The position numbers and the translations under genes are program-made. Positions 3,098 through 24,919 of a DNA stretch of 59,028 nt are shown here, piece by piece. Each line of letters starts with the position of its first letter. The stretch's first letter is position 1. The notes under the pieces are model-generated. The model was not told the origin of the DNA. It searched no databases and saw only the letters and a program-made list of their open reading frames with translations. The DNA is from Moorena sp. SIO3I8 (GTDB lineage Bacteria; Cyanobacteriota; Cyanobacteriia; Cyanobacteriales; Coleofasciculaceae): the NCBI RefSeq assembly GCF_010692325.1, contig NZ_JAAHHW010000018.1:22657-81684 (forward strand), in the 5' to 3' direction.

Positions 3098-4207
3098 CTA
3101 CAGGTCAGCTCGGCTCAAAACATCTTTGTAGAATTTAACGATAGTTTCTGCCATGAGTTTGGAATGCCAAGATTTTTCGTACACAGCTCTTGCCTTTTTG
3201 CCAGCATGCAGTAAATGTTCTCGATTATAGGCAATACATTTGATTGCATTCGCCAATGCTCTGGAATCTCCTTTTTCGACCAGCATGGCCCAATCGCCAT
3301 CATTGACAAGTTCTGGTATACCGCCCACATTCGTTGCAATGAAGGTGCGACCTGATGCCATAATCTCGAGCAACGAAAGGGGAAGGCCTTCAAGCAAAGA
3401 CGGCAAAACAAATAAGCTACACTGCTCGATCGCTTCATAGATATCCTCAACATAGCCATGTAAAATCACCGAATTCTCCAGCTCAAAGGCACGAATGAGA
3501 GACTCGACTCGGTAACGCTCTTGTCCATCACCGTATAAATGGAGCGTTATCTGAGAGTTTTCAGCCTTGAGCATTGCCATTGCTGCTAATAGGAATTCTA
3601 ACCCTTTTTCCTCAGACAAACGGCTGATACAACCAATATGGTTAAATGCAGTCTCTGCAATTGGACTCATAAAGGTTTCCCAGGATCTATTCTGGGGAGG
3701 TAAAAAGGAGGGAATCACATGTAGAGGCTTGTTTTTGTCACGTAAACGCCAAATGTTACTTGCTGCCTGATAAGACATGGCAATCACACCCTGAACGTTC
3801 TGCAACACATATTGTTCATCTTTGCCCATCCACCAAACTGAGGGAGAAGCATTGGTGGTTTCTGTAACTACAATCGGAATGTTGTTATGCGCTGTATCTG
3901 TTGTATGTTGCACCCAGGCACAAGCTAAGGACTCCACCGGAATAAAGTGAAGGATGTCCCATGACTGTTGTACTAATAACGCTTGGAGAGTATTGAGTTT
4001 TTTGTCTAGGGAACCCTCGACATCTAAAGAAATAAAACGAATGTTTTGCTGTTGTAATTGTGCTGTAAAGCTAGGGTGAATGGTTCCTTCCGCGATCATA
4101 ACCGTCACCTGGTGTCCCAACAGGTCTAAAGCCAGTGCAGTGGCCATGGTTAGGACCTCCGATCCTCCCATATGCTCGAGCCATTGAGTCACAATTACGA
4201 TGTTCAT
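3098..4207 (-). CDS. GT4-type glycosyltransferase, last gene of aminocyclitol cluster
   Basis: A 369-aa retaining glycosyltransferase with GT-B fold. The N-terminal acceptor domain begins with the family pattern MNIVIVTQWLEHMGGSE. The C-terminal donor domain (about 190-350) has the ISRLSEEKG loop, LYGDGQER, and the EX7E motif in EGLPLSLLEIMASG followed by NVGGIPELV. In 2-deoxystreptamine pathways the first sugar (UDP-GlcNAc) is added by a GT4 enzyme (BtrM/NeoM/KanF), and a PIG-L deacetylase then acts; here a PIG-L gene lies immediately upstream (76-bp gap). That makes a BtrM-like role attractive, but donor and acceptor cannot be read from the sequence. A surface-glycan transferase is the alternative. 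Confidence 0.85.
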   Translation of the reverse strand: MNIVIVTQWLEHMGGSEVLTMATALALDLLGHQVTVMIAEGTIHPSFTAQLQQQNIRFISLDVEGSLDKKLNTLQALLVQQSWDILHFIPVESLACAWVQHTTDTAHNNIPIVVTETTNASPSVWWMGKDEQYVLQNVQGVIAMSYQAASNIWRLRDKNKPLHVIPSFLPPQNRSWETFMSPIAETAFNHIGCISRLSEEKGLEFLLAAMAMLKAENSQITLHLYGDGQERYRVESLIRAFELENSVILHGYVEDIYEAIEQCSLFVLPSLLEGLPLSLLEIMASGRTFIATNVGGIPELVNDGDWAMLVEKGDSRALANAIKCIAYNREHLLHAGKKARAVYEKSWHSKLMAETIVKFYKDVLSRADL

Positions 4208-4283: not shown

Positions 4284-4991
4284 TCAGGTCTTCTGACGCC
4301 AAATACGTTCCACAGCCGTTCCGGCTACAATGCGCTGAGCATGAAACTTAACCCGCTCAAGATCTTCGGAAGAGACTTGTGAGGAATATAGTTGTAAATT
4401 TTGGAGCTTTTCTTCAAGGTGTTGACAGATGTCAATCATTTCTAACTCAGCAGCACCTAAGGTTTGCTGAACCCAGGTTTCAATTGTACTGAGTTCTTCA
4501 AACCCCGTATAGGGAACATCTTCATAAAAAATCTTTTCCAGCGAAGAAGTGGCTGACCATAACAAAACAGCTTTCTGCAGAATGATGTGATCGATATGGT
4601 TGCCAATTCCCAGAGGAACCCAAAGGCGTGTTACACCAGTTTGCGTGTTTAAAAAGGACTGAATAGCTTGAATACTTGCTTCCGCATCGGGATCCTGACG
4701 ATAATCAGTTACAGTAAAGATTGTATCCAGGTTAGTATAACCCCGAAGTGTCACATCCTTAAGACCGATGCCCTCATGCTGAAGCCCTAACTTATTCGCG
4801 TAGGCGATATCCTCTGCATATCGAATATTGCAAATAACGGCCTCGGAGGATCCTGATTCCACACTATAGGGCGCATAAATGCTCTTTTGAAAAACAGTCA
4901 CAAGCTTAGGTTCGTGACAATATCCTTTCAGCAGAAGACCACCAATCGAATAAGCAACATCATCAGCGTGGGCTGAGAGAAGTAAGTCCAT
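4284..4991 (-). CDS. PIG-L/LmbE-family N-deacetylase
   Basis: A 235-aa zinc-dependent deacetylase. The zinc site is visible as SAHADDVAYSIGG (His8, Asp10, Asp11; a variant of the usual HPDD) and GNHIDH (His132, Asp134, His135). The family removes acetyl groups from N-acetylglucosaminyl conjugates; it includes MshB, LmbE-like proteins and the aminoglycoside deacetylases BtrD/NeoD, which convert 2-prime-N-acetylparomamine to paromamine. It lies between a methyltransferase (22-bp gap) and a GT4 glycosyltransferase, the right company for deacetylating a freshly glycosylated aminocyclitol. The substrate is inferred from context only. Confidence 0.82.
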   Translation of the reverse strand: MDLLLSAHADDVAYSIGGLLLKGYCHEPKLVTVFQKSIYAPYSVESGSSEAVICNIRYAEDIAYANKLGLQHEGIGLKDVTLRGYTNLDTIFTVTDYRQDPDAEASIQAIQSFLNTQTGVTRLWVPLGIGNHIDHIILQKAVLLWSATSSLEKIFYEDVPYTGFEELSTIETWVQQTLGAAELEMIDICQHLEEKLQNLQLYSSQVSSEDLERVKFHAQRIVAGTAVERIWRQKT

Positions 4992-5013: not shown

Positions 5014-5856
5014 CTACACTGTGCAAAATTCTAAAGACATCCCTGAGGTAAAGCTGGCTGGCTGCATGGGATGAAGACGCTTGTACACAGATACCAACCT
5101 TAGACCGACGTCTAAAGCAATCTTTTCTAGTTCTTCTTGATGGTACAATCGCTGTCGGAGTGTACGATAGACTGTGCGCTCAACTGTCCCATCAGGTGCA
5201 ATCCATTCAAATATTTGGTTACTTGTCATGATTTGTCTATGGGGATCGTAATCTTCAGCTGAGCGCATGGCAACAGAGCGATTCCCAGAAGGGGTTGATA
5301 CTTGATGAACAATCCCAAAAAAAAGCATTGGTTTAGCTCCGGCTTGGCTAGCTTTGGCCAGTCGTTCTTGACTGCGACCACGTAAATCTGTCATAAAACG
5401 TCCTCCTAGCTTAAGGCTAAGGGCAATATTCTTAAGGGCACTCCGTAAACTAGATTTGTCCAGAAAATGGGTTAGAAAGTCATCGACTGCGATCGCAACA
5501 TCAACCTTCTTCCCATAGGAAGATGTCACAATATCCAGGGAACTGAGATGTAGATTATCTTGCAGGCTAGAGTGTCCTTCCTGGCTGAAACTTTTTAACT
5601 TGTCCTGGAAGAAAGAAATCATCTCTGGCGAGCAATCAACTGCGTGGACCTCATAATTACATTGAGCCAGAGGAATTGCTAAGCGACCTGTCCCACAACC
5701 AATATCTAAGATACGATGCTCTCCAGATTTCAGCGCCGACTGATAGTATTCAACCGTATCACCGCTATCAGCATCTCCAGAAGCAGAATCCAGTAATACT
5801 GGTTCGTAAAAGAGATGTTCCCAGGGACAGCAATATTTTTCCTGCATTGATTGCAT
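5014..5856 (-). CDS. Class I SAM-dependent methyltransferase
   Basis: A 280-aa Rossmann-fold methyltransferase. The SAM-binding motif I is ILDIGCGTGRLAIPLA (about 49-64), followed by the acidic VHAVDCSPEM strand and a post-II DVAIAVDDFLTHF region. The C-terminal half is typical of small-molecule methyltransferases, with no RNA-binding domain visible. Three bases separate it from the upstream radical SAM gene, so translation is probably coupled. It could N- or O-methylate the aminocyclitol or a sugar (N-methyl-2-deoxystreptamine is known in hygromycin B). Regiochemistry cannot be told, and a self-resistance rRNA methylase seems unlikely from the sequence. Confidence 0.82.
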   Translation of the reverse strand: MQSMQEKYCCPWEHLFYEPVLLDSASGDADSGDTVEYYQSALKSGEHRILDIGCGTGRLAIPLAQCNYEVHAVDCSPEMISFFQDKLKSFSQEGHSSLQDNLHLSSLDIVTSSYGKKVDVAIAVDDFLTHFLDKSSLRSALKNIALSLKLGGRFMTDLRGRSQERLAKASQAGAKPMLFFGIVHQVSTPSGNRSVAMRSAEDYDPHRQIMTSNQIFEWIAPDGTVERTVYRTLRQRLYHQEELEKIALDVGLRLVSVYKRLHPMQPASFTSGMSLEFCTV

Positions 5857-5859
5857 CTC

Positions 5860-6924
5860 CTAAAGTTGTACTCGGTATTCTGACCAGTTCGGATCGATCA
5901 TATCCTCTAGGTCCATATAGCGACGGTTGTAGCACCAATTACAATCACCACAGATTGCAATTTCCTGTCCCTGATTGAAGCGTGCCAAGTGCTCTTTCCT
6001 CAGTTGAACCATCTCGGGACCATTCCAGAAATCTTCGAAGCTTCCCTCACTCCAATTTGCAAATGTGAACTCTTCCACCCCATTAAGGTGATCACAAAAT
6101 CCCATGCGTCCTCGACTATTGACATAAAGGTATTGCCAAGGATGAATACACAATTTTCTAACCGCTGGCTCATACACTTGTTCTTCAATCAATGAGGCAG
6201 AAAGTTCAATACGAGCCCCTGTTTCCTCAACTAGGGTTTTCAAAGCAGCTGTTTCTGCTTTCACGGTTTGGATATGGTACTTCAGATGATTTGGATCGCC
6301 ATCACTGGTTTTCAAGGGCTCCAGCTTAAAACGGTCAATCCCAAGGTCGAGACCGATGTGAACAATATTCTTGATATCCAGCAAGTTCATACCACTGGCA
6401 GTAATGCAGAAATAAACTTGCTGCTTTGGATCTAACCCCGAAGTTTCTGCTGCTCGGATGATCTGGCGAACATTTGCCAACATTTTTTCTAGTTTTGCTC
6501 CTACTCGCAGCTGTTCATAGAGTTCGGGATCCGCTGCATCAATGGAAACACCAACAATCACCCCCGCTTCTCCAAGCTTCTGCCACAGGTGGGGTTTATT
6601 TACTGTTGCATTAGTGATCAATTTTTTCTGCAGTGGAAACCGCATAGCATAATCGAGATATGCCTCGAAATTAGGTAGTAGTGTACTTTCACCCCAACCG
6701 CGCAAATCGACAAAGCGGGCATGAGGAAAAAGTGCATCTGCAATCTCTTTGAACACCTCTAGCGACAGAACATCACCCGCAACGGCTGATTGTCGACACA
6801 TGGGACAGAGAAGATTACACCGATCAGTTAATTCAATGTAAAGTCCCTGTGGATAATCGCTACAGTGAGCTGAAACTATTTGTGTTTGAGAATTGTTTTC
6901 GATTGTTTTGCTGATGGATAACAT
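5860..6924 (-). CDS. Radical SAM enzyme with SPASM/twitch-type C-terminus
   Basis: A 354-aa protein. The radical SAM cluster motif CX3CX2C is present as CNLLCPMC (Cys36/40/43), with the GGE-like motif as GWGES. The C-terminal region has a SPASM-like set of cysteines: the Cys in KLCIHPW, the Cys in MGFCDH, then CGDCNWC. SPASM/twitch radical SAM enzymes in aminoglycoside pathways include BtrN, which oxidises 2-deoxy-scyllo-inosamine to the amino-inosose, plus epimerases such as NeoN and the diol-processing AprD4. BtrN itself is shorter (about 250 aa). With a DOI aminotransferase in the same operon, a dehydrogenase role is the leading hypothesis but unproven. Confidence 0.85.
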   Translation of the reverse strand: MLSISKTIENNSQTQIVSAHCSDYPQGLYIELTDRCNLLCPMCRQSAVAGDVLSLEVFKEIADALFPHARFVDLRGWGESTLLPNFEAYLDYAMRFPLQKKLITNATVNKPHLWQKLGEAGVIVGVSIDAADPELYEQLRVGAKLEKMLANVRQIIRAAETSGLDPKQQVYFCITASGMNLLDIKNIVHIGLDLGIDRFKLEPLKTSDGDPNHLKYHIQTVKAETAALKTLVEETGARIELSASLIEEQVYEPAVRKLCIHPWQYLYVNSRGRMGFCDHLNGVEEFTFANWSEGSFEDFWNGPEMVQLRKEHLARFNQGQEIAICGDCNWCYNRRYMDLEDMIDPNWSEYRVQL

Positions 6925-6992: not shown

Positions 6993-8177
6993 TTAGGCAT
7001 CATTTGAATCCTCCAAAAGCGATATCCGGGAGGATGAAAGCAAATTAGAACAAACATAATTGACCTGATCTAATGTCATCGTTGGATACAGAGGAAGGGT
7101 TATCACCCTTTGAGAAAACGCCTTACTTTTTTCGACTCCAGAAGCTTCTAAATGTCCAAAAGCAGTAAAATTAGTAATGCAGGGATAATGTAGACTGGTT
7201 TGGATGCCTGCAAGCTTCAAGTCTTGAACAACACGTTCACGTGTACGTTGATCGGGTGCGACAATTGGCATTAAATGATAAGCTGAGTCACCAGAGAAAT
7301 GGCGGAAAGGAATTATCCAATTAGACAATGAATCCAGCTGACTATAATAGGCATTCACGATTTCCTGTCGTCGATGATTATTGCTCTCTAGCTTTTGAAG
7401 TTGTGTGCGTCCTAAGGCAGCTCTGATTTCATCAAAACGATAGTTAAAACCATGTAGAACTACATCGTAAGATCGGGCGTGTCCCTTGTGGCGTTCCCAG
7501 GTTAGCGTAGTCATTCCGTGGGAGCGCAATAAGCGAACACGCTTGGCCAAATCGTCTTGATCGGTTGTGATGAGCCCTCCTTCTCCTGTCGCCAGGTTTT
7601 TATTACTAAAGAACGAGAAACAGGCAATATCTCCCAGTTGTCCCACTCGATGACCGTGAGGAAACCGAGCTTGTGAGTCCAGGTAGCGAGCACCCACTGC
7701 ATGGCAAGCATCCTCAATCACGGCTAAATCATGGCGTTCACAGAGGGCTCGAAGGTCAGCCATGCGACAGGGATATCCTCCATAGTGCATAACGACAATT
7801 GCCTTTGTTTGCTGCGTAATTCGATGTTCAACATCTGTGATATCAAGGGTTGGTTCATCCAGGCTAATGATATCTGCAAAAATGGGGCGAACACCCACTG
7901 CAATAGCCGTGTTAGCCGCAGCAACAAAATTAAGCGCAGGTTGAATAACTTCGTCTTCTTTTCCTAATCCCAAAGCCAGGTAAGCGAGTTGCAGGGCAGC
8001 GGTACCACTCGAAACGGCGATCGCGTGCTTAACTCCCAAAAACGATGAAAACTCTTCCTCAAAAACTTTGACTTCTGGCCCCATAGACAGCCATTGCCGC
8101 TGGAGAACTCGCTGAATAGCCTTTTCTTCTTCTACTCCGTAATCCAAATCGCTGAGGGGAACTTTCCAGTTAGACAA
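6993..8177 (-). CDS. DegT/DnrJ/EryC1/StrS-family PLP aminotransferase (nucleotide-sugar type)
   Basis: A sugar aminotransferase of 394 aa from the chosen start. Visible features are SSGTAAL (PLP phosphate contact), EDACHAVGA (Asp that binds the pyridine N), and the Schiff-base Lys in FFSNKNLATGEGG (Lys193 in this numbering). I chose TTG 8177: GGGAGG sits nine bases upstream, the protein then begins SNWKVPLSDLDYG like family members, and it overlaps the upstream gene by only 8 bp. An ATG at 8243 adds 22 residues but overlaps the upstream coding region by 74 bp. It follows a LegB-like 4,6-dehydratase and a nucleotidyltransferase, so it probably transaminates an NDP-4-keto-6-deoxy sugar. It is more distant from the DOI aminotransferase at 13172-14455. 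Confidence 0.85.
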   Translation of the reverse strand: MSNWKVPLSDLDYGVEEEKAIQRVLQRQWLSMGPEVKVFEEEFSSFLGVKHAIAVSSGTAALQLAYLALGLGKEDEVIQPALNFVAAANTAIAVGVRPIFADIISLDEPTLDITDVEHRITQQTKAIVVMHYGGYPCRMADLRALCERHDLAVIEDACHAVGARYLDSQARFPHGHRVGQLGDIACFSFFSNKNLATGEGGLITTDQDDLAKRVRLLRSHGMTTLTWERHKGHARSYDVVLHGFNYRFDEIRAALGRTQLQKLESNNHRRQEIVNAYYSQLDSLSNWIIPFRHFSGDSAYHLMPIVAPDQRTRERVVQDLKLAGIQTSLHYPCITNFTAFGHLEASGVEKSKAFSQRVITLPLYPTMTLDQVNYVCSNLLSSSRISLLEDSNDA

Positions 8178-8928
8178 GGTCAAATTCCTCCCGTTTCTCA
8201 GCAAATAAATCTTGGGCTTTTGCATAGTCATCGGGCCGACCAATATCTAGCCAAAGGCAATTGGCAGGATAAGCACAGACTTGCTCGCCTTCCTCTATTA
8301 GCCGTAAAACTAAGTCTGGGAGATCGAGGTATTTGCCATACTCAATATATTTAAGGACACGGGGCTCATAGGCATAGATCCCCATGCTGACCGGATAAGA
8401 GGTCTCTGGCTTTTCGATGTAGTCAATCACTTGATGGTGGTCATTCAGCTTCAAGACACCCAAATCAATCTTGACATTCCGAGTATAGCAGGCGATCGTA
8501 AGTGCCGCATTCTTATCTCGATGAAACTGAATAAGATGGTTAAAATTTAAATCAGTGAGTAAATCACCATTCATGACCAAAAATGTTTGGTCAAGATTTG
8601 GAATGAAGGATAACGAGCCTGCAGTTCCCGTTGGCTCTTCCTCTTCAACAAAATCCAGGTTTATTTTTTCTACCAAGCTATGTCGATGATCAAAGTAAGC
8701 CTTCACCAACTCTGCTAAATGGCCCAATGTTAGGGTAATGTTGGTAATGCCATAGCGAAGCAGACGGCGGATGAGAATTTCTATAATCGGAACATCACCT
8801 AGTGGAACTAAAGGTTTAGGAAAATTGACTGTAAAGGGCTTAAGGCGCGTGCCTTTTCCTCCAGCTAAAATGACAGCCTTCATTCCTGCGGTAAGATGGT
8901 GATCGGTACTTGAGCCAGACCCTTTCAT
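8170..8928 (-). CDS. Sugar-phosphate nucleotidyltransferase
   Basis: A 252-aa NTP_transferase enzyme that activates a sugar 1-phosphate to an NDP-sugar. It has the signature ILAGGKGTRLKPFT and PKPLVPLGDVPI, the FLVMNGDLLTDL metal/sugar loop, and a C-terminal WLDIGRPDDYAKA. The start at ATG 8928 has GAGAGG just upstream; a second ATG 15 codons in would also begin exactly at the family motif (MKAVILAGG). It begins 8 bp after the LegB-like gene and overlaps the following aminotransferase by 8 bp. Similar enzymes are annotated as mannose- or glucose-1-phosphate guanylyl/thymidylyltransferases; base and sugar specificity are not resolvable here. Confidence 0.85.
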   Translation of the reverse strand: MKGSGSSTDHHLTAGMKAVILAGGKGTRLKPFTVNFPKPLVPLGDVPIIEILIRRLLRYGITNITLTLGHLAELVKAYFDHRHSLVEKINLDFVEEEEPTGTAGSLSFIPNLDQTFLVMNGDLLTDLNFNHLIQFHRDKNAALTIACYTRNVKIDLGVLKLNDHHQVIDYIEKPETSYPVSMGIYAYEPRVLKYIEYGKYLDLPDLVLRLIEEGEQVCAYPANCLWLDIGRPDDYAKAQDLFAEKREEFDLV

Positions 8929-8936
8929 ACTACCTC

Positions 8937-9914
8937 TCAGACAACATAGTCTTGATTTCGATATTGAGCTTGGTGCTGTTTCATATATTCAGCAACCTGT
9001 AATAGTCCTGCTTCCAAAGACACCTGAGGCTGCCATCCTAATCGCTGTTTTGCATTTGAAGCATCACACAAAAGTAGATCAACTTCACTTTGCTTGGGAC
9101 GTTGCCGTTCAGCCGTACTTATAATCTCAGCATGACTGTTTACGACCTTTAAGCAAGTATGGGCAATTTCTGCCACGCTCACTGCATTACCCTGTCCAAA
9201 ATGGATAGTTTCTCCCTCGATACCTGATGCTTCTGATGCCAATAAGAAGGCTCTCGCAGTGTCCAATACAAAGGTTAAGTCTCGCTTGGGCGTTAAATTT
9301 CCTAAACGAATTGTGTTCGTTCCTGCCATAGCCTGAGACAGCACCGTTGGAATAATAGCCCGCGCTGACTGCCGAGGACCATAGGTGTTAAATGGTCGTA
9401 GGGTAACGACAGGCAAGTCATAAGTGCAAAAGAAAGATTCCGCAAGTTTATCAGCTGCAATCTTACTCGCAGCATAAGGAGATTGAGCCTGTAAAGGATG
9501 ATCCTCCCTCATCGGTGTATAGAGGGCAGTACCGTACACTTCACTAGTTGAAGTAATAATAACCCGACGCACTGTTTTTTGTCGGCAGGCTTGCAAGATA
9601 TTCAAAGTTCCACCTGTATTGGTTGCAAGATAAGAAGCAGGAGCGTGATAGGAATAGGGAATTCCGATCAATGCTGCCAGATGGAAAACAACCTCGCAAT
9701 TTGCAACCAGATCTGTCACGAAGTAGGGATCGGTAATATCGCCTAGACAAACCTCTAGATTTTCTCGTAACTGAGGCTGAATGTCTTGAAGATGTCCCCA
9801 GCTGCCTTGACTATTGTAACGAACCAAAGCTCTGACTTGATGCCCATTCTGAAGCAACATCTCAACAAGATGGCTAGCAATAAATCCACCTGCACCCGTT
9901 ACTAAAACTGTCAT
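8937..9914 (-). CDS. LegB-like NAD-dependent sugar 4,6-dehydratase (extended SDR)
   Basis: A 325-aa extended short-chain dehydrogenase. The dinucleotide-binding motif is TGAGGFIASH (6-15); the catalytic triad is in TSTSEVYG (Ser/Glu 124-125) and YAASK (Tyr147, Lys151). The sequence closely resembles the LegB-type NDP-sugar 4,6-dehydratases, for example RYNSQGSWG and LAALIGIPYSYHAP. These enzymes form an NDP-4-keto-6-deoxy sugar that a DegT aminotransferase then aminates, and such an aminotransferase is encoded two genes downstream. This gives the cluster a second, amino-deoxy sugar arm. The true substrate (GDP- or UDP-linked, N-acetylated or not) is unknown. Confidence 0.83.
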   Translation of the reverse strand: MTVLVTGAGGFIASHLVEMLLQNGHQVRALVRYNSQGSWGHLQDIQPQLRENLEVCLGDITDPYFVTDLVANCEVVFHLAALIGIPYSYHAPASYLATNTGGTLNILQACRQKTVRRVIITSTSEVYGTALYTPMREDHPLQAQSPYAASKIAADKLAESFFCTYDLPVVTLRPFNTYGPRQSARAIIPTVLSQAMAGTNTIRLGNLTPKRDLTFVLDTARAFLLASEASGIEGETIHFGQGNAVSVAEIAHTCLKVVNSHAEIISTAERQRPKQSEVDLLLCDASNAKQRLGWQPQVSLEAGLLQVAEYMKQHQAQYRNQDYVV

Positions 9915-9940: not shown

Positions 9941-10567
9941 CTAGAGATTAGAAGCTGAAATAGCGTCGATGATTTCATCAGGAGAGTCTGCAAGCAGCGA
10001 AGCATGCAAAATATATTTAACTGCATCCAGAAGATCAGACGCTAAATACGAAACTTCTGCAGCATTTGTCCATTCAGGTCGATAGAGATTAGATTGAATT
10101 AAACAACTTCCTTTGCAGCCAGCGTTGGCCCCTGCTAAAACGTCACTAATTGAATCTCCAATCATCCAACTTTGTGAAATTGAGAGCCCCATTTCTTGCG
10201 CAGCCCGCAGTAGCATGCCTGGCCCAGGTTTGCGGTCAATGTGCTCGATCTGCGTCAGGTCTGAAGTTTGAGGAACATGGGGACAGTAATAAATAGCATC
10301 AATGCCAATCCCTTGGTCGTGAAGTAGCATCTCCAGTCTGGCATGAATAGATTCTAAGCCCTTCAGACTTAACATCCCCCTTCCTACAACAGATTGATTC
10401 GTGACTACGACGCAAGCAAACCCAGCTTCTCGTAGCAAAGATAGTGCAGAAACAGCAGTGGGCTCTAACTCTACATCCTCAGGATTGCAGAGATGGTGAA
10501 CATGCTTGATCAATGTGCCATCCCGGTCTAAGAAGATCGCTGGCTTAAGTTTTAACTGAGTTGCCAT
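9941..10567 (-). CDS. HAD-family phosphatase, GmhB-like (heptose 1,7-bisphosphate 7-phosphatase)
   Basis: A 208-aa HAD hydrolase of histidinol-phosphatase/GmhB type. The nucleophile loop is FLDRDGTLI (Asp14, Asp16), followed by VVVTNQS, DRKPGPGM and MIGDSISD. GmhB removes the 7-phosphate of D-glycero-D-manno-heptose 1,7-bisphosphate. Canonical GmhB proteins bind Zn through cysteines in a CPHHP...CDCRKP loop. Here CPHVP is kept but the second pair reads EHIDRKP, so the Zn site looks incomplete and the substrate could differ. It sits 14 bp after a GmhA-like isomerase, which supports a heptose-phosphate role. Confidence 0.8.
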   Translation of the reverse strand: MATQLKLKPAIFLDRDGTLIKHVHHLCNPEDVELEPTAVSALSLLREAGFACVVVTNQSVVGRGMLSLKGLESIHARLEMLLHDQGIGIDAIYYCPHVPQTSDLTQIEHIDRKPGPGMLLRAAQEMGLSISQSWMIGDSISDVLAGANAGCKGSCLIQSNLYRPEWTNAAEVSYLASDLLDAVKYILHASLLADSPDEIIDAISASNL

Positions 10568-10581
10568 AAGAAGAATTGACC

Positions 10582-11232
10582 CTAAACATCAATCTTATCT
10601 TCAAATAATCCACAAATCTTCTGGCTAAACATATGTCCTAAAACGAGCTGAACATCTTCGATAACACCATAATTATTAGAGGGAATCGTAAGGTTCAAAT
10701 CAGCCATTGAAGCAACTTTACCACCACCAAACCCGGTGATCGATATCGTTTTGATACTGAGATCTTGAGCAGTTGCACAGGCTTCTAAAATGTCAGGCGA
10801 ATTACCTGAGGCCGTTAGCATCAATAAAAGGTCACCCGGATTGCCTGTTTCCTTAACCTGAAAACTAAAGATCTTTCGGAAATCAAAGTCATTGCCAAGT
10901 GCAGTAATAATCGATGGAGAGCCTGCCAAATTGAGAACTCGCAGCCGTGATTGATAGGTGCGAAAAGCACTAGTTAAGTCACAGTGATAATGGGATGCAT
11001 TACTGGCACTGCCACCATTCCCAATGAGCAAAACCTGTGCCTGTCGTAATCCAACATCTGCAATGAGATGGGCGATCGCTTCAACCGTATCAAAATCCAA
11101 ATTAGCGAGTACATCACTGAGTGTTTTAGCATATTTCCTTGGATTTTCAATTATCTGTCGAGGCCGATATTTGCTCTTTTTTATTGATGTAACAGGACTC
11201 ATGATTTTAATATTTATTTTACAAGACTGCAT
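10582..11232 (-). CDS. SIS-domain phosphosugar isomerase, GmhA-like
   Basis: A 216-aa single SIS domain related to sedoheptulose-7-phosphate isomerase (GmhA). The phosphate-binding GNGGSASNASHYHCDL and LTASGNSPDI motifs are clear, and the C-terminus has YGVIEDVQLVLGH with the helix His of the family. Compared with E. coli GmhA from memory, the active-site Glu65 (AEEL) appears as Asp (CDL) and Gln172 as Glu. It may therefore be a divergent isomerase acting on another ketose phosphate. It is followed by the GmhB-like phosphatase and preceded (12 bp) by an HddC-like nucleotidyltransferase, so a GDP- or ADP-heptose branch is the natural reading. Confidence 0.8.
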   Translation of the reverse strand: MQSCKINIKIMSPVTSIKKSKYRPRQIIENPRKYAKTLSDVLANLDFDTVEAIAHLIADVGLRQAQVLLIGNGGSASNASHYHCDLTSAFRTYQSRLRVLNLAGSPSIITALGNDFDFRKIFSFQVKETGNPGDLLLMLTASGNSPDILEACATAQDLSIKTISITGFGGGKVASMADLNLTIPSNNYGVIEDVQLVLGHMFSQKICGLFEDKIDV

Positions 11233-11244
11233 TTATATTTCGAG

Positions 11245-11952
11245 TCAAAAAAATTGGGAAAAATCTTGACGAAACTGGTCTAGTCGGCTCGGGGTACCAA
11301 TGTCATAAAAACGATGTTTACTCATAAAGGTTTGCATTGTTCCAGCGGATGCGAAATCTGGAAAAATATCTTCTTCTAAGCTAGCTGGAATTTTATTGGG
11401 AAAGTTATCTATATGGTTAAGATGTAAGACTAAAGCCCCTGCATCAACATATTCAAGTTTCAGATCGGGTCTATCTTTAATGTATTGCTGGAGAAATCCA
11501 TCAGGGCTGACTCGAACATTATTGGGAACCGGCAGTTCACCTTGATTTGGATAGATTGTCATGATGGCTGTTTGATCGTACTGCTGAGAATGTTGAAACA
11601 TCAGCGAGTAGTCACACGGCAGAAAAGAGTCACCGTAGACAACAACAAATACATCATTCAACTTTTCATAGGCATTGGATAAGCAGCCTGCTGTCCCTAA
11701 TGGCATTGTTTCGACACTATATTCAATCTCAACATTCCACTTATGGCCATTACCAAAGTAATCTTTCACTTGTTCCCAGCGATAGCCAAGTAATAGCAAG
11801 ATTGACCGAATGCCCTGTCGCTGTAGATACTGAATTTGGTACTCCAAGAAAGGATGTTCTTCAACTGGAGCCATAACCTTTGGCAAAGTATCTGTAAGAG
11901 GAGCAAGACGCGTTCCTCTTCCTCCTGCGAGAATAACAGCCTGATCAAACAT
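11245..11952 (-). CDS. Nucleotidyltransferase, HddC-like
   Basis: A 235-aa nucleotidyltransferase. Motifs are AVILAGGRGTRLAPLT, LPKVMAPV, PLGTAGCLS and VVVYGDSFLPCD. Short proteins of this type next to gmhA/gmhB are commonly D-glycero-D-manno-heptose 1-phosphate guanylyltransferases (HddC). It starts two bases after the DOI synthase-like stop, implying coupled translation and the same pathway. No heptose 7-phosphate kinase (HddA, a GHMP kinase) or HldE homologue exists in the window, so the arm is incomplete here. A glucose- or hexose-1-phosphate substrate is the alternative. Confidence 0.78.
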   Translation of the reverse strand: MFDQAVILAGGRGTRLAPLTDTLPKVMAPVEEHPFLEYQIQYLQRQGIRSILLLLGYRWEQVKDYFGNGHKWNVEIEYSVETMPLGTAGCLSNAYEKLNDVFVVVYGDSFLPCDYSLMFQHSQQYDQTAIMTIYPNQGELPVPNNVRVSPDGFLQQYIKDRPDLKLEYVDAGALVLHLNHIDNFPNKIPASLEEDIFPDFASAGTMQTFMSKHRFYDIGTPSRLDQFRQDFSQFF

Positions 11953-11954
11953 GA

Positions 11955-13166
11955 TTAGGCCTCCTGCATTGCTTTTGTTGAGACAGAACTGTGTGTTTGA
12001 GAAAATACATCAATATCTCTACGGGCTCGCTCTATCGCCGTGAGTATCTCAGCCTCATTAACACAGACTAAAGGTTTTTCATGAGTCATCGCAACCAGAC
12101 CAATCGACCGCAATAAAACAAAGGGATGTTGTTCTAAACCTGAACTGAGATAGCCATGTTTGTTGTCCTTCCGGATCAGTTGGAGGGTTTTGTCAAAATC
12201 GAGGGTCTGTGGAAATTGAATCTTCGGATTAGCACCATGGAGTAGACGGTAGTGTAACCAATACTCCTCTTCACTTAACCATTCTCGATTTAAGGAGATG
12301 GCAGAAGCTACTAACATTCCTAATCCAACAGCAATCCCATGGGATAATTCACTGTGCTGGACCTCTAAAGCGTGACCCACCGTATGGCCATACTCCAGGG
12401 AAATCCCTATTCCCTTTTCATAAGGATCGATAAGAAGTAGCTTCTGTTTTGCCTTTATCCCGAGCAAAACTAATTGAATCCACGTGGAATCATTAGCTGG
12501 CTGCCTAATCAAGGAGACCAGCTTTTCTGTTTGTTCAGCATCAAAAACAAGGCAATTTTTGATTAGTTCATTGATGCCAGCAATAAGTTCTTTTTCAGGC
12601 AAAGTCTTCAAGAAATTGACAGAGACAAAACTAGCTTCAGGTAAGTAGTACATGCCAAACAGGTTCTTCCCACGCTGACCATTTACGGCCTGTTTGAGTG
12701 ATAAAATTGAATCTGACATGGCCAGGAAGGTTGTTGGCATATGAACCATAGAAATGCCTCGGTAAAGCAGGCCTGCAACCATCCCAGCAATATTCCCTGC
12801 AAGCCCGCCTCCAAGGGCAATCACGATACTGCGGCGAGTTACCCCCGCTGCAATCGCCTCTTCTAAGAGACGATTAACTTGATCTAAGGTCTTTAATTTC
12901 TCAGAGGGTTTGACCAGCGCTTTACGCACTGAAAAATTAGAACAATATCGTGATTCAATGACAGTTCCATACAGTTCCCAAACACGATCATCTGCGATAA
13001 AAAATATTTGATCAGGATTCTTTTGTTGGCAAAACTTAATGCACTCATGATGTACATCTTGACCAATCAGGATGGGCATGTTGCGCTCGCCAAAGTTGAA
13101 GCAAACTTCAAGAAATTTGCTGCTTTTTAGCTGCTCACTAAAGTTCGGGGAAAGCAAAGTTTTCAT
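11955..13166 (-). CDS. 2-deoxy-scyllo-inosose synthase-like sugar phosphate cyclase
   Basis: A 403-aa member of the dehydroquinate-synthase superfamily. The NAD loop is GGGLAGNIAG (119-128). PTTFLAMSDSILSLKQAVN (144-162) has the DOI-synthase form; DHQ synthases read PTTLLAxVDSSVGGKTGxN and EEVS enzymes differ again. Lys158 matches the BtrC active-site Lys. The zinc ligands are Glu200 (INELIKN), His261 (EYGHTVGHALE) and His276 (LSHGIAVG). The C-terminal HPFVLLRS also matches the BtrC family. DOI synthase cyclises glucose 6-phosphate to 2-deoxy-scyllo-inosose, the first step to 2-deoxystreptamine. The DOI-type aminotransferase gene lies 5 bp upstream. An N-terminal extension of about 15 residues is present. 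Surprising in a cyanobacterium. Confidence 0.85.
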   Translation of the reverse strand: MKTLLSPNFSEQLKSSKFLEVCFNFGERNMPILIGQDVHHECIKFCQQKNPDQIFFIADDRVWELYGTVIESRYCSNFSVRKALVKPSEKLKTLDQVNRLLEEAIAAGVTRRSIVIALGGGLAGNIAGMVAGLLYRGISMVHMPTTFLAMSDSILSLKQAVNGQRGKNLFGMYYLPEASFVSVNFLKTLPEKELIAGINELIKNCLVFDAEQTEKLVSLIRQPANDSTWIQLVLLGIKAKQKLLLIDPYEKGIGISLEYGHTVGHALEVQHSELSHGIAVGLGMLVASAISLNREWLSEEEYWLHYRLLHGANPKIQFPQTLDFDKTLQLIRKDNKHGYLSSGLEQHPFVLLRSIGLVAMTHEKPLVCVNEAEILTAIERARRDIDVFSQTHSSVSTKAMQEA

Positions 13167-13171
13167 AATTT

Positions 13172-14455
13172 CTAATTTATCCCAGAATAGATTTTGTGAA
13201 GTGCCGCTGCAATCATATCCATATCCTCACGGGGTGACAATAAAACAGAGTGGTGTAACAGTAATGTTTTTTCATGTACTTCTTCTGAAGAAGGAAGATG
13301 AAAACGTTTTTTGTCAACTAAACTTTTCACTGACTCTGACTGCTGAACCCAAGCTTTTTTCTCAGGAACGTACAGTGGATGACGTGATAGAGGAACATAT
13401 GGTTGATGTACCCATGTTCCAAGCTCTGCTGAGAGTGCTTCCCCAACCCAGGCAACGGTTTTTCCCCGTAAAAATGTCTCATTTAAGAAAAAAGCAAAAT
13501 GGTAATAGACTTCCTCATCATCTGGTTCGTGATAAGACGGAATAGAAATACCAGGCAATTGTTGTAAGAGCTGGGCAAGATAAGCTGCATTGCTTCTTCT
13601 CTGTTCATTTTGGGCTTTAAGCTTTTTAAGCTGGATCGTTAAGATTGCAAGCTGAATATCAGAAAGACATCGATTACGTCCACTAAGGACGTGGCCAGAT
13701 TCCAGCAACTCTGTTCGTCCTAAAGTACGACCATCTTCGCCTGCTAAGAAACGTCCATCTGTACGAAAGCGATAAATTCTCTCGGCTAGGTCATCATCAT
13801 TCGTGACGCAGCATCCTCCCTCCCCTGCAGTCAAAGGCTTACCCTGTTGCATGCTAAATGCTCCAACTTGACCGAGTGTACCCACGCACTTACCTTTCCA
13901 GCGTGCGCCATGGGACTGGGCGCAGTCTTCTATAATTGTTAAACCATGCTCTTTAGCAATCTGACATAGTGCCGACATATTGGCAATACGACTGTAGAGA
14001 TGAACTACCAAAATTGCCTTAGTCTTAGAAGTAATCAGCTGCTTCACTGATTTGGGATCAAGACACATGGTCTTTGGATCAACATCAGCTAACACAGGAA
14101 TCGCTTGCTGAGCCAGAACAGAATATGGACAAGCCACCCAAGTAAGCCCAGGCACAATGACTTCGTCCATCGGCTTAACATCACAAGCTTCCATCGCTAG
14201 CTCTAAAGCTGATGTCCCATGATCAGTTGGAATACAGTACTTAGCGCCCAGAAAGCTGCTAAATGCAGAAGCAAATATCTGTTCTTGTAAAGGTTTACCA
14301 TTAGAGAATCCGCTGATGGTCCAACGCCCACTGCGTAATACTTTAATAACTTCCGATTCAGTTTCTGCATCGGATTGAGGCCATTTGGGCCACTGCCTTT
14401 CGAAGATAGGGGTTCCTCCATCAATGGCTAACCTGCTAATTTGAAGAACTATCAT
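13172..14455 (-). CDS. DOI-type L-glutamine:2-deoxy-scyllo-inosose aminotransferase-like (BtrR/StsC group)
   Basis: A 427-aa PLP enzyme of the aminocyclitol branch of the DegT family. Diagnostic stretches are GRWTISGF near residue 43, EVIVPGLTWVACPYSVLA, IEDCAQSHGARW and the Schiff-base loop AFSMQQGKPLTAGEGG (Lys206). The MQQGK..TAGEGG form is that of BtrR/NeoB and StsC-like inosose aminotransferases rather than of nucleotide-sugar enzymes. BtrR acts twice, on DOI and on the amino-inosose, to give 2-deoxystreptamine. Its start overlaps the upstream GT2 stop by 4 bp and its stop is 5 bp before the DOI synthase-like gene, the pairing expected of an aminocyclitol pathway. Confidence 0.85.
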   Translation of the reverse strand: MIVLQISRLAIDGGTPIFERQWPKWPQSDAETESEVIKVLRSGRWTISGFSNGKPLQEQIFASAFSSFLGAKYCIPTDHGTSALELAMEACDVKPMDEVIVPGLTWVACPYSVLAQQAIPVLADVDPKTMCLDPKSVKQLITSKTKAILVVHLYSRIANMSALCQIAKEHGLTIIEDCAQSHGARWKGKCVGTLGQVGAFSMQQGKPLTAGEGGCCVTNDDDLAERIYRFRTDGRFLAGEDGRTLGRTELLESGHVLSGRNRCLSDIQLAILTIQLKKLKAQNEQRRSNAAYLAQLLQQLPGISIPSYHEPDDEEVYYHFAFFLNETFLRGKTVAWVGEALSAELGTWVHQPYVPLSRHPLYVPEKKAWVQQSESVKSLVDKKRFHLPSSEEVHEKTLLLHHSVLLSPREDMDMIAAALHKIYSGIN

Positions 14456-15222
14456 ATCGAATATCGATAATTGTCATCTGAATTGGAAACTCCACCCAAA
14501 TAGTATTTAACAGTAGCTTGTTGACTGCAAGCAAACCGAAAATCAATATTTAAGATTTTATTTAGAATCTTGTCATCTTCTCCTACCTGATTATCCAGCT
14601 CTTCTTGAGTGAATTCTGCATTAAAGCCAATACGCAGCAGTGATTTAGTCCTGAACAACCACTCATTCATATCTACCGTTGCTACATTTCGAGGATCGTC
14701 TGAAACTCGAGGACCATCATACACAACAGCATCTCCCAAACGGATAACTTCGTTGTCTACACACCATTTATAGAGAAGACTTGCAGTCTTTGGATCTGCA
14801 TGCCAGGGATAATAATCCCCTTCAAAAAGAGAACCGTCAGGGTGGAGTAGAATCCTCCAAGAGTAGGCAGCATCTAGTTGCTGCTCTTGAATACAGTGCA
14901 ACAAACTACTTAGATGATTAGGCAAAAACTCATTATCGTCATCTAGAAAACAGACAAAAGGTTCCTGGATTTTTTCTAGGGCAGACTGACGTAGTTTAGC
15001 CATGCGAGGAGAGGAGTGCTCGTGGTAGGGTACATCTTCAATGGCTACCCACCTGACAAGATCTTTGATTGGTTTGAGTACTGGGCTAGTTTTTAACTCA
15101 TTAACTCGTTCTGAAAAGACATAATGTATTGTAGGTACTTGCTGTAGTCTGACGCTATTGATGCAGCGCTCTAATTCTCTGTCTCGATCTACACAAAATG
15201 TAATAACGGCTACAGTTAACAT
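14452..15222 (-). CDS. GT2-type glycosyltransferase, first gene of the cluster
   Basis: A 256-aa GT-A fold transferase. The N-terminus LTVAVITFCVDRDRELERCINSV is typical of GT2, and CFLDDDNEFLP (Asp94-96) is the DXD metal/NDP-sugar site. The C-terminus is hydrophilic with no membrane anchor, so it should be cytosolic. It is the promoter-proximal gene and overlaps the DOI aminotransferase by 4 bp. The start codon has no convincing Shine-Dalgarno. It probably adds one of the activated sugars (heptose or amino-deoxy sugar) made by the operon; donor and acceptor are unknown. Confidence 0.82.
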   Translation of the reverse strand: MLTVAVITFCVDRDRELERCINSVRLQQVPTIHYVFSERVNELKTSPVLKPIKDLVRWVAIEDVPYHEHSSPRMAKLRQSALEKIQEPFVCFLDDDNEFLPNHLSSLLHCIQEQQLDAAYSWRILLHPDGSLFEGDYYPWHADPKTASLLYKWCVDNEVIRLGDAVVYDGPRVSDDPRNVATVDMNEWLFRTKSLLRIGFNAEFTQEELDNQVGEDDKILNKILNIDFRFACSQQATVKYYLGGVSNSDDNYRYSI

Positions 15223-22209: not shown

Positions 22210-23691
22210 TCAAGCAATCCCAGAAGATTTATGACCAGCATTAAGAACAGCGTTAATTACTTCTTTTATATCTTCAAGTTTAGCATTGGGGTTCAGTAGG
22301 GTAAACTTCAAAAAAGTATTGCCATTAAACCGTGTCTCACCAATAACTATGCCTTCTCCCATCAGAGTCAAGCGAATTTTTCTATTTATAGTATCAATAT
22401 CTTTATTACCAATAGGTTTATATCGAAAAACTAACGAAGAGAGTTCTGGCTCATTTAACAGTTCTATCTCATCCAATCCCTTAAGGTATAAAGCAACAGC
22501 ACGAGTAAGATCAAGTAAACCTTGAAGTATATCTTCTATACCAGACTGTTTCATCCCTTGGATCGTGAGCAGGAACTTCAAAGAATCAAACCTCCTAGAT
22601 GTTTGCAGTGACTTGTCAACAAGGTTCTTCATTCCCAGCTCAAAATCTTCTTTTCGATTCAGATAGTCTGACTCAAAATTTAGATTTTGTATATATTCCT
22701 TATTGTTGCAGAGAAATAAACTTGAAGAAATGGGTTGAAAAAGCATTTTATGCAGATCGATAGTAATAGAATTTGCCAAGGACAAATAGCGCGTCCACCT
22801 CACTTTTGGATTAAATATCATTGCTCCACCATAAGCAGCGTCTATATGGTGCCACATGCGGTATTCCTTAGCAATTTCAGCTATTTCTTTAATCGGGTCA
22901 ACACTTCCATAGTCAGTTGTGCCAGCAGTAGATACAACACAAATTGGAATACAATTATTAGAAATATCTTTGACAAGCTGTTCTTGGAATTTTTTTAGAT
23001 CAATTTTGAATTGTCTATCAACATCAAGCTTGACAACACTCTGTTCACCTAGACCTAATAACCAAGCACTTTTTTCAATTGTAAAATGAGAAACACTTGA
23101 ACAGTAAATTCTAAATTTACTTTCTAGCTGACCTAATGACTCTCGCCTTGAATCAATATTATATTCTTGCCTCTTGATATCTCTAGCCAACAATATCCCC
23201 ATCAAATTTGATTGACTTCCTCCGGAGGTAAAAACTCCATCATAACGATGGTTTTTACCAAATATATTCTGTAGAAAAAAGCTAACGACAAGTTCATCAA
23301 TTTCAGTGGCAAAAGGAGCTTGATCCCATGAATCAAGGGAAGGATTTAAAAGCCCAATCAGATATTCCCCAATAACTGTTTCTATAGATACAGTACTATG
23401 AAGGTGAGCCATGTATAAAGGTGAATATATATTGACTGAATGCTCAATATATAGATTAGATATATCTTCTATAATAGAATCTAGACTTTTATCCGACTCA
23501 GTCGCTAAGTCAATACCTGAGATGAGTTCTTGCAACTGTTTTGGTTCGACTCCAGAAAAGCAATGCCTGTCATTTTTTAACCGTTCAGCTAGTATTTCAT
23601 TGATTCTAACGATGCTTTTACTGATAGCATCCAATCCTTCACTATTATTGATGCCTAAGAAATGATTAGTTTTCATTGATGAATTTTTCAA
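22210..23691 (-). CDS. ddc: L-2,4-diaminobutyrate decarboxylase (PLP group II decarboxylase)
   Basis: A 493-aa group II decarboxylase, the usual length of Ddc. It has TSGGSQSNLMG for PLP phosphate binding, His202 in SVSHFTIEKSA stacking on PLP, STAGTTDYGSVDP, Asp284 in HHIDAAYGGA and the Schiff-base Lys315 in TIDLHKMLFQP. Ddc converts 2,4-diaminobutyrate to 1,3-diaminopropane. The gene overlaps the end of the diaminobutyrate aminotransferase gene by 26 bp, the arrangement seen in dat-ddc operons. Decarboxylation of another amino acid (tyrosine, aspartate or glutamate) is possible from the family alone but less likely with this neighbour. Confidence 0.85.
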   Translation of the reverse strand: MKNSSMKTNHFLGINNSEGLDAISKSIVRINEILAERLKNDRHCFSGVEPKQLQELISGIDLATESDKSLDSIIEDISNLYIEHSVNIYSPLYMAHLHSTVSIETVIGEYLIGLLNPSLDSWDQAPFATEIDELVVSFFLQNIFGKNHRYDGVFTSGGSQSNLMGILLARDIKRQEYNIDSRRESLGQLESKFRIYCSSVSHFTIEKSAWLLGLGEQSVVKLDVDRQFKIDLKKFQEQLVKDISNNCIPICVVSTAGTTDYGSVDPIKEIAEIAKEYRMWHHIDAAYGGAMIFNPKVRWTRYLSLANSITIDLHKMLFQPISSSLFLCNNKEYIQNLNFESDYLNRKEDFELGMKNLVDKSLQTSRRFDSLKFLLTIQGMKQSGIEDILQGLLDLTRAVALYLKGLDEIELLNEPELSSLVFRYKPIGNKDIDTINRKIRLTLMGEGIVIGETRFNGNTFLKFTLLNPNAKLEDIKEVINAVLNAGHKSSGIA

Positions 23692-24919
23692 TTGTAGACA
23701 CTACAGTCCCTAAGCCTTTTTCCAGTTCTTCAATACCGATCGTTAAAGGTGGCAAAACTTTAAGAACTTGGTCGTTGATTCCTGCTGTTTCGATGATTAA
23801 ACCCTGGCGAAAACATTCTCTGGAAATAATTTTGCTGAGTTTTTGATTAAAGCATTCAATGCCCCAGATGAGGCCACGCCCTCTAACTGCAAGCTTAGTA
23901 TCAAAGCTTTCAAGAAGCTTAGTTAAGGTTTTTTTAACGATTTCTTCTCTTTTTTGTATGCCTTGAATAAACTCATCATTTACCCAGTAATAATTAAGGG
24001 CGGCTGCGGCTGTAACAAACGCAAGATTATGTCCTCTAAAGGTTCCATTGTGTTCTCCTGGAGTCCATTTATCTAAGTCCGGTTTTATTAGTGTTATAGA
24101 AAATGGAAGACCAATACCAGAGAGTGATTTTGATAAGCAGATAACATCAGGAGAGATGCCAGAATGCTCAAAGCTAAAAAACGTTCCAGTCCGACCACAT
24201 CCGACTTGAATGTCATCAACAATTAGGATGATATCGTAATCGCGGCATATACTTTCAATTTCTCGAAGCCACTCATAGCTGGCAATCCGAATACCACCCT
24301 CAGCTTGAATTGTTTCTAAAATAACTGCTGCTGGGATATCATAACCGCTACCCCGATCTTCAAGATATTGCCGAAACATTTTCGCAGTATTAACTTGAGG
24401 ACCATGATATCCGTCATAGGGAATAAAATAGCTGCCAACTAACTCAAGGCCAGCCCCTCGTCTTTTTCTGGCATTCCCTGTAAGGGACAATGAACCAAGT
24501 GTCATCCCATGAAAAGCATTGGTAAAGGTGGCAATCGTTGTTCTTCCTGTCACTTTTCTGGCAATTTTGATGGCCGCCTCTATTGAGTTTGTTCCAGTAG
24601 GACCGGGAAATTGAACCTTATAGTTCATGTTTCTTGGCTTGAAAATAATCTCATTAAATGCATGCAATAAGTCAGCTTTTGCACTAGTCATTAAGTCAAG
24701 ACTGTGAATGATCCCATCTTCTATAAGATAGGAAATAAGTTGTTCTTTAATGTGATAATTGTTATGTCCATAGTTGAGCGCGCCAGCTCCACAGAAAAAA
24801 TCAAGATATTCAGTGCCATCTTCATTAATAAGGGTTGCTCCCTTAGCTTTTTTAAAAACAGTAGGAAAAGCTCTACAGTAACTCCTAACCTCAGACTCTA
24901 TCTCCTCAAAAATATTCAT
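23666..24919 (-). CDS. dat: 2,4-diaminobutyrate--2-oxoglutarate aminotransferase
   Basis: A 417-aa class III aminotransferase of the EctB/Dat type, making L-2,4-diaminobutyrate from aspartate semialdehyde. Diagnostic parts are FFCGAGALNYGHN near residue 41, QFPGPTGTNSIEAA, AFHGMTLGSLSLTG, VDDIQVGCGRTGTFFSFE and the PLP Lys264 in CLSKSLSGIG. It is the first gene of a dat-ddc pair overlapping by 26 bp. The lack of ectA or ectC nearby argues for 1,3-diaminopropane rather than ectoine. Confidence 0.9.
   Translation of the reverse strand: MNIFEEIESEVRSYCRAFPTVFKKAKGATLINEDGTEYLDFFCGAGALNYGHNNYHIKEQLISYLIEDGIIHSLDLMTSAKADLLHAFNEIIFKPRNMNYKVQFPGPTGTNSIEAAIKIARKVTGRTTIATFTNAFHGMTLGSLSLTGNARKRRGAGLELVGSYFIPYDGYHGPQVNTAKMFRQYLEDRGSGYDIPAAVILETIQAEGGIRIASYEWLREIESICRDYDIILIVDDIQVGCGRTGTFFSFEHSGISPDVICLSKSLSGIGLPFSITLIKPDLDKWTPGEHNGTFRGHNLAFVTAAAALNYYWVNDEFIQGIQKREEIVKKTLTKLLESFDTKLAVRGRGLIWGIECFNQKLSKIISRECFRQGLIIETAGINDQVLKVLPPLTIGIEELEKGLGTVVSTIEKFINEN

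Follow-up and report, generated by a model that had tools for sequence, protein, structure and literature searches.

A 13-gene operon with predicted 2-deoxy-scyllo-inosose synthase and aminotransferase genes in the cyanobacterium Moorena sp. SIO3I8

The operon and its closest relatives

The stretch of DNA analyzed here (referred to as the window) comprises 59,028 nucleotides of the cyanobacterium Moorena sp. SIO3I8 (assembly GCF_010692325.1, contig NZ_JAAHHW010000018.1, positions 22,657 to 81,684), whose genome of 8.0 Mb is distributed over 510 contigs and is 99.5% complete. On its minus strand two intact open reading frames (ORFs) are separated by only 5 bp, one coding for a 403-aa sugar phosphate cyclase (CYC, 11955-13166) and one for a 427-aa aminotransferase (AT1, 13172-14455). 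A sequence-only reading had interpreted this adjacent pair as a 2-deoxy-scyllo-inosose (DOI) synthase (DOIS) with its DOI aminotransferase (DOI-AT) and had quoted the motifs PTTFLAMSDSILSLKQAVN and AFSMQQGKPLTAGEGG, both of which are present in the pair. Its span (11955-14455) covers just two genes of a head-to-tail array of 13, all on this strand, which begins at 15222 and extends to 3098 with intergenic gaps between -74 and +76 bp. The order within this operon is GT2, AT1 (DOI-AT), CYC (DOIS), NT1, SIS, HAD, SDR, NT2, AT2, rSAM, MT, PIG-L and GT4, and psbU is found about 0.8 kb upstream of it.

At E 1e-50 matches to CYC occur in three of 386 genomes across the phylum and in 23 of 388 within the order, with the source genome counted in each. 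Only one of these other matches is close (71% identical), that of Oscillatoria sp. PCC 10802, and the rest show 33-37% identity. This strain of the same order has 12 of the 13 operon genes in unchanged order (GT2, AT1, CYC, NT1, SIS, HAD, SDR, NT2, rSAM, MT, PIG-L and GT4) and with 60-79% identity. AT2 is the gene missing from its operon; an SDR gene on the opposite strand stands in this position, and the top-scoring relative of AT2 in this genome reaches 36% identity. A core of seven genes (CYC, AT1, GT2, PIG-L, GT4, MT and rSAM) is found together in Pseudomonas entomophila COR5 and P. lactucae with 29-57% identity. Since the rSAM, PIG-L and CYC genes of the P. lactucae core (L056:4233-10915) are split into several frames, this copy gives the impression of a cluster in decay or of a poorly assembled one. 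Following the last operon gene of Oscillatoria sp. PCC 10802 on the same strand, a gene for a MATE-type efflux transporter was observed (L029:3569-5164) that could export the product.

The cyclase and the adjoining aminotransferase

CYC is predicted to be a DOI synthase of the BtrC type on the basis of its closest solved structures, its position in a phylogenetic tree and its conserved residues. The top match of a phmmer search in the PDB is 2d2x (204 bits, E 2.3e-59), named 2-deoxy-scyllo-inosose synthase by its depositors, and we take 2d2x and 2gru to be BtrC from the butirosin pathway. The best dehydroquinate synthase (DHQS) reaches 143 bits. Below the DHQS chains (143 bits and less) follow 4p53 with 78.5 bits and 5tpr with 67 bits, deposited as 'Cyclase' and '3-dehydroquinate synthase' and presumably representing ValA, a 2-epi-5-epi-valiolone synthase (EEVS), and a desmethyl-4-deoxygadusol synthase (DDGS), respectively.

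The cyclase tree was reconstructed from 118 rows, namely the window, 24 loci of 22 cyanobacterial genomes, three plasmid records, 80 named loci, eight PDB references and two cyclases of the source genome itself, its AroB and a DDGS-like enzyme. Loci L001-L003, L028-L041 and L125-L127 were omitted, being either from the source genome or larger regions around genes already included. L006 and L045 represent one Oscillatoria gene and were both kept, the row of L113 is partial, and that of L056 is cut short by the break in the P. lactucae copy. CYC belongs to a DOIS-like clade, which comprises 109 rows (support 100), and outside of it fall all nine DHQS, EEVS and DDGS references, i.e. five PDB structures of DHQS, the AroB of the source genome, ValA (4p53), the PDB structure of DDGS (5tpr) and the DDGS of the source genome. 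A grouping with DHQS or EEVS, which would have refuted the earlier claim of a DOIS-type cyclase, was thus not observed, and the claim is supported. Within the clade CYC joins Oscillatoria (support 100), then two Pseudomonas sequences (100) and then a planctomycete metagenome-assembled genome (91), which together form a group of six rows. This group is sister to, and not part of, the BtrC clade of 79 rows (support 90; both together 91). As CYC lies outside the BtrC clade proper, its substrate identity depends on residues and partner genes.

For this comparison, columns at least 95% identical in the 79-row BtrC clade were regarded as conserved (n=54), and those with a residue never present in the nine reference rows as diagnostic (n=10). 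CYC retains 52 of the conserved and nine of the diagnostic DOIS columns, and both the AroB and the DDGS of the source genome have none of the ten. It matches BtrC at N108, K141, Q142, N187, E243 and N321, and among its DOIS-type residues are N125, Q159, N204, E258 and N335. Residue E258 aligns with E243 of BtrC, which we assume to matter for DOI synthase catalysis; the same column shows asparagine in all six DHQS rows, aspartate in ValA and alanine in the two DDGS. From 123 confirmed loci the best 80 make up the named set; as they were retrieved by two motifs spanning Q159 and E258, these two columns are not independent for those rows, in contrast to N125, H142, N204, H305, N335 and G338. BtrC is the best PDB match of CYC and shares with it the six residues named above, and CYC differs in its sister placement (support 90-91).

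It is hardly credible that CYC has been misannotated here and is an ordinary DHQS, or an EEVS or DDGS. Pfam and the best NCBIfam model do name it a DHQ synthase, but with the NCBIfam model aroB it scores 234, under the cut-off of 305, it falls into a separate clade, and the genome already has its own AroB in addition to the DDGS-like cyclase. All three identities were rejected on the basis of the tree and the diagnostic residues. The DDGS-like cyclase is encoded on contig C2 (L003:59-2235) with 5tpr as best PDB match (310 bits) and adjoins an ORF that resembles, by eye, an O-methyltransferase, and such a pair is the usual opening of the synthesis of mycosporine-like amino acids.

A second alternative is an enzyme that is DOIS-like in fold and chemistry but uses another sugar phosphate and leads to a different amino-cyclitol. 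The placement of the six-row group outside the BtrC clade would agree with this, as would the GmhA-, GmhB- and HddC-like genes of heptose metabolism in the operon. We consider it unlikely, since CYC has so many of the conserved and diagnostic DOIS positions and, among the solved families found, the DOI aminotransferases are the closest to the adjoining AT1.

The other DOIS-like cyclases of cyanobacteria (L004, L005 and L008-L027) make up 22 rows that are 32-37% identical to CYC and form their own clade (support 100). As controls, 11 loci with other cyanobacterial cyclases (198 kb) were searched, ten of them with cyclases from this clade plus L030, whose cyclase stands apart; some are short (L039 with 7.4 kb and L040 with 13.7 kb). 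None of the other genes of the window operon was detected in them at E 1e-6. Equating the 22 cyclases with CYC was rejected because of their separate clade and this lack of other operon genes. They possess the DOIS-type N/Q/N/E residues, with T-G replacing G-Y after the DNK motif, and a DOI aminotransferase is absent from ten of ten loci checked. In three of the loci the genes nearby code, among others, for MFS transporters, TIM barrels of the xylose-isomerase-like kind, a multicopper oxidase or a neutral invertase.

AT1 is the putative L-glutamine:DOI aminotransferase of the BtrR/RbmB type. Its three best PDB sequences are all glutamine:DOI aminotransferases, with 356 bits for 5w70 (E 2.4e-105) and 312 bits for 5w71 and 2c7t, and the next match follows with 177 bits. 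Their depositors use the name (L-)glutamine:2-deoxy-scyllo-inosose aminotransferase; we take 5w70 to be RbmB and 5w71 and 2c7t to be BtrR. The corresponding tree (75 rows) contains clades of 66, 68 and 69 rows that hold RbmB, BtrR and AT1 with support of 98, 99 and 96, in agreement with the BtrR-type assignment proposed earlier. RbmB and BtrR are the best PDB matches of AT1 and belong to one clade with it (98), and AT1 differs in its sub-clade, in which it joins Oscillatoria (100). The intermediate branching order is weak (71, 32 and 65), and its grouping with the two Pseudomonas sequences has a support of only 71. Of the 80 named DOIS-like loci, 65 contain a homologue of the DOI aminotransferase, 62 of them with at least 200 bits, and the 11 control loci contain none.

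The radical SAM protein and the sugar and tailoring genes

The gene rSAM (5860-6924) codes for a radical S-adenosylmethionine (SAM) protein (Pfam Radical_SAM and SPASM) with a four-cysteine twitch-like domain and is the candidate for a DOI-amine dehydrogenase. Its cysteines C36, C40 and C43 (CX3CX2C) as well as C259, C277, C328 and C331 are invariant in an alignment of 12 rows. In the butirosin pathway DOI-amine is oxidized by BtrN, a radical SAM enzyme of the twitch type with a four-cysteine auxiliary site (PMC9012708). Likewise, rSAM has the CX3CX2C motif plus a complete four-cysteine auxiliary site of the twitch type. In the PDB, where BtrN is included, rSAM gives no BtrN match at E 1; as a positive control, a radical SAM protein from a DOIS cluster of Sodalis finds BtrN in the same set with 186 bits. 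The profile alignment of rSAM with this Sodalis protein is restricted to the twitch part (hhalign probability 72.7). For these reasons rSAM was not classed as BtrN, and identity with BtrN in the strict sense was ruled out as there is no whole-length sequence relationship. Judged from its cysteine pattern, rSAM may work like BtrN.

The 13 operon genes include no canonical E-type dehydrogenase (NeoE/Tdh type, Zn type), which is the reason why rSAM is proposed for the oxidation of DOI-amine. It is also the sole candidate oxidoreductase among the seven core genes common with Pseudomonas. Its identity amounts to about 73-74% with Oscillatoria and 55% with P. entomophila. In the order, 13 of 291 genomes yield a match at E 1e-12, and besides the source genome and Oscillatoria all of these are at most 35% identical; among the named DOIS-like loci six of 80 have a homologue.

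It is quite possible, if not the view we prefer, that rSAM is a sugar epimerase (NeoN/HygY-like) or another tailoring enzyme, and that the dehydrogenase for DOI-amine is encoded in another part of the genome or this oxidation does not take place, leaving a mono-amino product. The missing sequence match to BtrN fits this explanation. Furthermore, radical SAM epimerases are part of aminoglycoside pathways: NeoN is one of them, and HygY is reportedly another. The source genome also contains dehydrogenases, of which the best two are 31-32% identical to the enzyme of the DOIS locus of Streptomyces abikoensis (L118). On the other side stand the complete four-cysteine auxiliary site, as reported for BtrN, and the position of rSAM as the only candidate oxidoreductase of the shared core.

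Two glycosyltransferases frame the operon. GT2 (14452-15222) is its first gene and belongs to family 2 (Pfam Glycos_transf_2, 27 bits with a cut-off of 23.3); it is 64% identical to its counterpart in Oscillatoria and 46-47% to those of the two Pseudomonas clusters. GT4 (3098-4207), the last gene, codes for a family-4 enzyme (Pfam Glyco_trans_1_4, 124 bits) whose matches in the PDB are all generic GT4 ones. Next to it PIG-L (4284-4991) encodes a putative de-N-acetylase, for which a BtrD/NeoD-like role is proposed (Pfam PIG-L, E 4.6e-6, 27.6 bits, slightly below the cut-off of 28.2), and MT (5014-5856) a SAM-dependent methyltransferase (Pfam Methyltransf_25, 53 bits). In butirosin and neomycin biosynthesis a glycosyltransferase and a PIG-L deacetylase of the NeoM/NeoD type transfer N-acetylglucosamine (GlcNAc) and deacetylate it, and the family-level matches of GT4 and PIG-L suggest such a paromamine step here. 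Homologues of GT2, MT, PIG-L and GT4 occur in six, four, 28 and 30 of the 80 named DOIS-like loci, respectively.

Downstream of CYC a putative heptose module is located. NT1 (11245-11952) codes for a sugar-1-phosphate nucleotidyltransferase similar to mannose-1-phosphate guanylyltransferase, MurU and HddC (Pfam NTP_transferase 89 bits; NCBIfam HddC 107 bits, below the cut-off of 300). SIS (10582-11232) resembles the sedoheptulose-7-phosphate isomerase GmhA (TIGR00441 118 bits, cut-off 209; phosphoheptose isomerases of the PDB 85-101 bits) and HAD (9941-10567) the heptose-bisphosphate phosphatase GmhB (NF006506 134.7 bits, cut-off 178), the latter being above the subfamily-domain cut-offs of TIGR01656 and TIGR01662. 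Thus, GmhA-like, GmhB-like and nucleotidyltransferase genes are present, and all scores with the GmhA, GmhB and HddC equivalog models are below the curated cut-offs. An HddA-like heptose kinase was not found in the source genome, in a search that did not extend to pfkB-type kinases. Using the HddA-like kinase of S. abikoensis as query, no match was obtained there (a search without positive control). Three GHMP-kinase matches, found with controls, resemble this kinase only at E 0.18-0.70, and by our own reading ThrB and IspE are the likely identities of two of these.

The remaining sugar genes are SDR (8937-9914) for a LegB-like nucleotide-sugar 4,6-dehydratase/epimerase (TIGR04180 418 bits, cut-off 475), NT2 (8170-8928) for a second sugar-1-phosphate nucleotidyltransferase (Pfam NTP_transferase 139 bits; 79% identity to Oscillatoria) and AT2 (6993-8243) for a nucleotide-sugar aminotransferase of the DegT type (Pfam DegT_DnrJ_EryC1 365 bits). 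The listed TTG start of AT2 overlaps NT2 by 74 bp, and for this reason the real start is probably a little downstream. A gene of the phosphoglucomutase family (window 855-2522) is oriented towards the operon's end; its product might serve the pathway by interconverting glucose phosphates, or it may be unrelated.

NT1, SIS, HAD, SDR and AT2 are of kinds that are frequent in surface-glycan loci, which raises the question whether the operon supplies a surface polysaccharide with an amino-cyclitol or amino-sugar unit and does not make a free small molecule. The second NCBIfam match of CYC, the putative cyclizing phospholyase TIGR04425 (190 bits, cut-off 400), points in the same direction. Nevertheless, no priming transferase, flippase or polymerase is seen among the families shown for the 13 genes (several NCBIfam lists comprising the best 25), and the seven-gene core recurs in Pseudomonas without SIS, HAD, SDR, NT2 and AT2. 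A role in surface polysaccharides is therefore improbable in our opinion.

Related clusters and the predicted product

According to a review, every 2-deoxystreptamine cluster identified to date retains the C, S and E genes for DOIS, a dual-function aminotransferase and a DOI-amine dehydrogenase (PMC5461906). The window operon has the C and S genes and shares DOIS, DOI-AT, GT4 and PIG-L with clusters of the butirosin/neomycin type. It differs from them in the lack of an E-type dehydrogenase, in a twitch rSAM without detectable BtrN match and in the extra GT2, MT and sugar genes. Three actinomycetous loci, L107 from Streptoalloteichus tenebrarius, L118 from S. abikoensis and L122 from Streptomyces, have DOIS, GT2, rSAM, SDR, DegT, SIS and HAD genes in one stretch in common with it. 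A homologue of AT1 is also present in L107 and L118; the L122 stretch begins 33 bases ahead of the cyclase match. L118 differs from the window by an HddA-like kinase (160 bits against a cut-off of 600) and an IolM/Tdh-type dehydrogenase, and its rSAM shows no match with the window rSAM at E 1e-6. PIG-L, MT and the two nucleotidyltransferases distinguish the window from all three loci. By analogy their layout appears hygromycin-B-like; the heptose of hygromycin B reportedly derives from sedoheptulose 7-phosphate (Tang and colleagues, 2018). The P. entomophila COR5 locus (L046), unlike the window, has an HddA-like kinase (140 bits against a cut-off of 600) as well as a nucleotidyltransferase on the other strand. 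In place of SIS, HAD, SDR, NT2 and AT2 it carries epimerase, Asn-synthase-like and GFO/IDH/MocA genes.

The statement of the sequence-only reading that such pathways are classically from actinomycetes and bacilli turned out to be too narrow. Genera with DOIS-like loci include Pseudomonas, Photorhabdus, Xenorhabdus and Trinickia, and from Rickettsia buchneri an aminoglycoside cluster with DOIS, DOI-AT and PIG-L outside the classical producers has been published (PMC8770908). The gene set of the Rickettsia cluster differs from that of the window, with an L-threonine-3-dehydrogenase-type gene and others.

Two plasmids deserve mention in their own right. In Streptomyces sp. NBC_00853 (L044:11974-16614) genes for a DOIS-like cyclase and a DOI-type aminotransferase precede those for a 'streptomycin biosynthesis protein' and for an inosamine-phosphate amidinotransferase, so that genes of the deoxystreptamine and the streptidine type are combined in an unusual way. 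In Streptomyces sp. NBC_00015 (L043:11944-13104) an annotated DOI synthase lies beside an MFS transporter, with no annotated aminotransferase within 12 kb. Within the window, two adjacent genes at 22210-24919 resemble by eye a pyridoxal phosphate-dependent decarboxylase and a class-III aminotransferase and are reminiscent of diaminobutyrate or diaminopropane synthesis.

Taken together, the operon probably makes an aminocyclitol glycoside or aminoglycoside of the 2-deoxystreptamine type. What the sequences themselves establish is the family to which CYC and AT1 belong, the layout of the operon and its conservation, with 12 of 13 genes in a second cyanobacterium and a seven-gene core in Pseudomonas. 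The best-supported part of the predicted pathway leads from glucose 6-phosphate via DOI to 2-deoxy-scyllo-inosamine: CYC would convert glucose 6-phosphate to DOI, and AT1 would aminate DOI with glutamine. The amino-cyclitol would then probably be oxidized by rSAM, as by BtrN in butirosin, and a second amination by AT1 would give 2-deoxystreptamine. Following the paromamine logic, GT4 would add a GlcNAc unit and PIG-L would deacetylate it. GT2 may attach a second sugar of the heptose and/or amino-deoxy type supplied by NT1, SIS and HAD together with SDR, NT2 and AT2, and MT may methylate an amine or a hydroxyl group.

Several of the observations described above weigh against this interpretation, namely the sister position of the CYC group relative to the BtrC clade, the low support for AT1 with the Pseudomonas sequences, the failure of rSAM to find BtrN and the restriction of its profile alignment to the twitch part, the want of an E-type dehydrogenase in the operon, the score of PIG-L under its cut-off and the HddA-like kinase that was not found in the genome. 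In addition, the families reported for the 13 genes give no hint of self-resistance. The earlier suggestion of a DOI-amine- or 2-deoxystreptamine-like product is reasonable as a prediction; for the third canonical step, that of the DOI-amine dehydrogenase, the operon has no canonical gene.

Among the literature matches listed, from a collection that lacks most subscription papers, no native cyanobacterial case of a DOI synthase, deoxystreptamine, aminocyclitol or the corresponding antiSMASH class is described. The claim that no cyanobacterial example has been described is in line with this but needs to be qualified: in the available portion of a review from 2020, 'aminoglycoside/aminocyclitol' is among the antiSMASH cluster classes counted in cyanobacteria, without description (PMC7761380). 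Prior notice, for instance in antiSMASH listings of Oscillatoria sp. PCC 10802, may exist. The only cyanobacterial production of DOI among these matches is that from heterologous btrC in Synechococcus elongatus, as cited in PMC6170601.

Only tentatively we go further and suggest that photosynthetic bacteria make a native aminoglycoside of the 2-deoxystreptamine type by a variant pathway. In it the canonical dehydrogenase would give way to a distinct family of twitch radical SAM enzymes, which for most of their sequence show no detectable relation to BtrN, and a single scaffold would bring together modules of the hygromycin type (GT2, heptose) and of the paromamine type (GT4, PIG-L). If this is true, native aminoglycoside-type chemistry reaches oxygenic phototrophs, and the oxidation of DOI-amine may have a second radical SAM solution. 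The cluster family itself is common to cyanobacteria and Pseudomonas. As Oscillatoria sp. PCC 10802 is a culture-collection strain that carries the operon, this prediction is open to testing.

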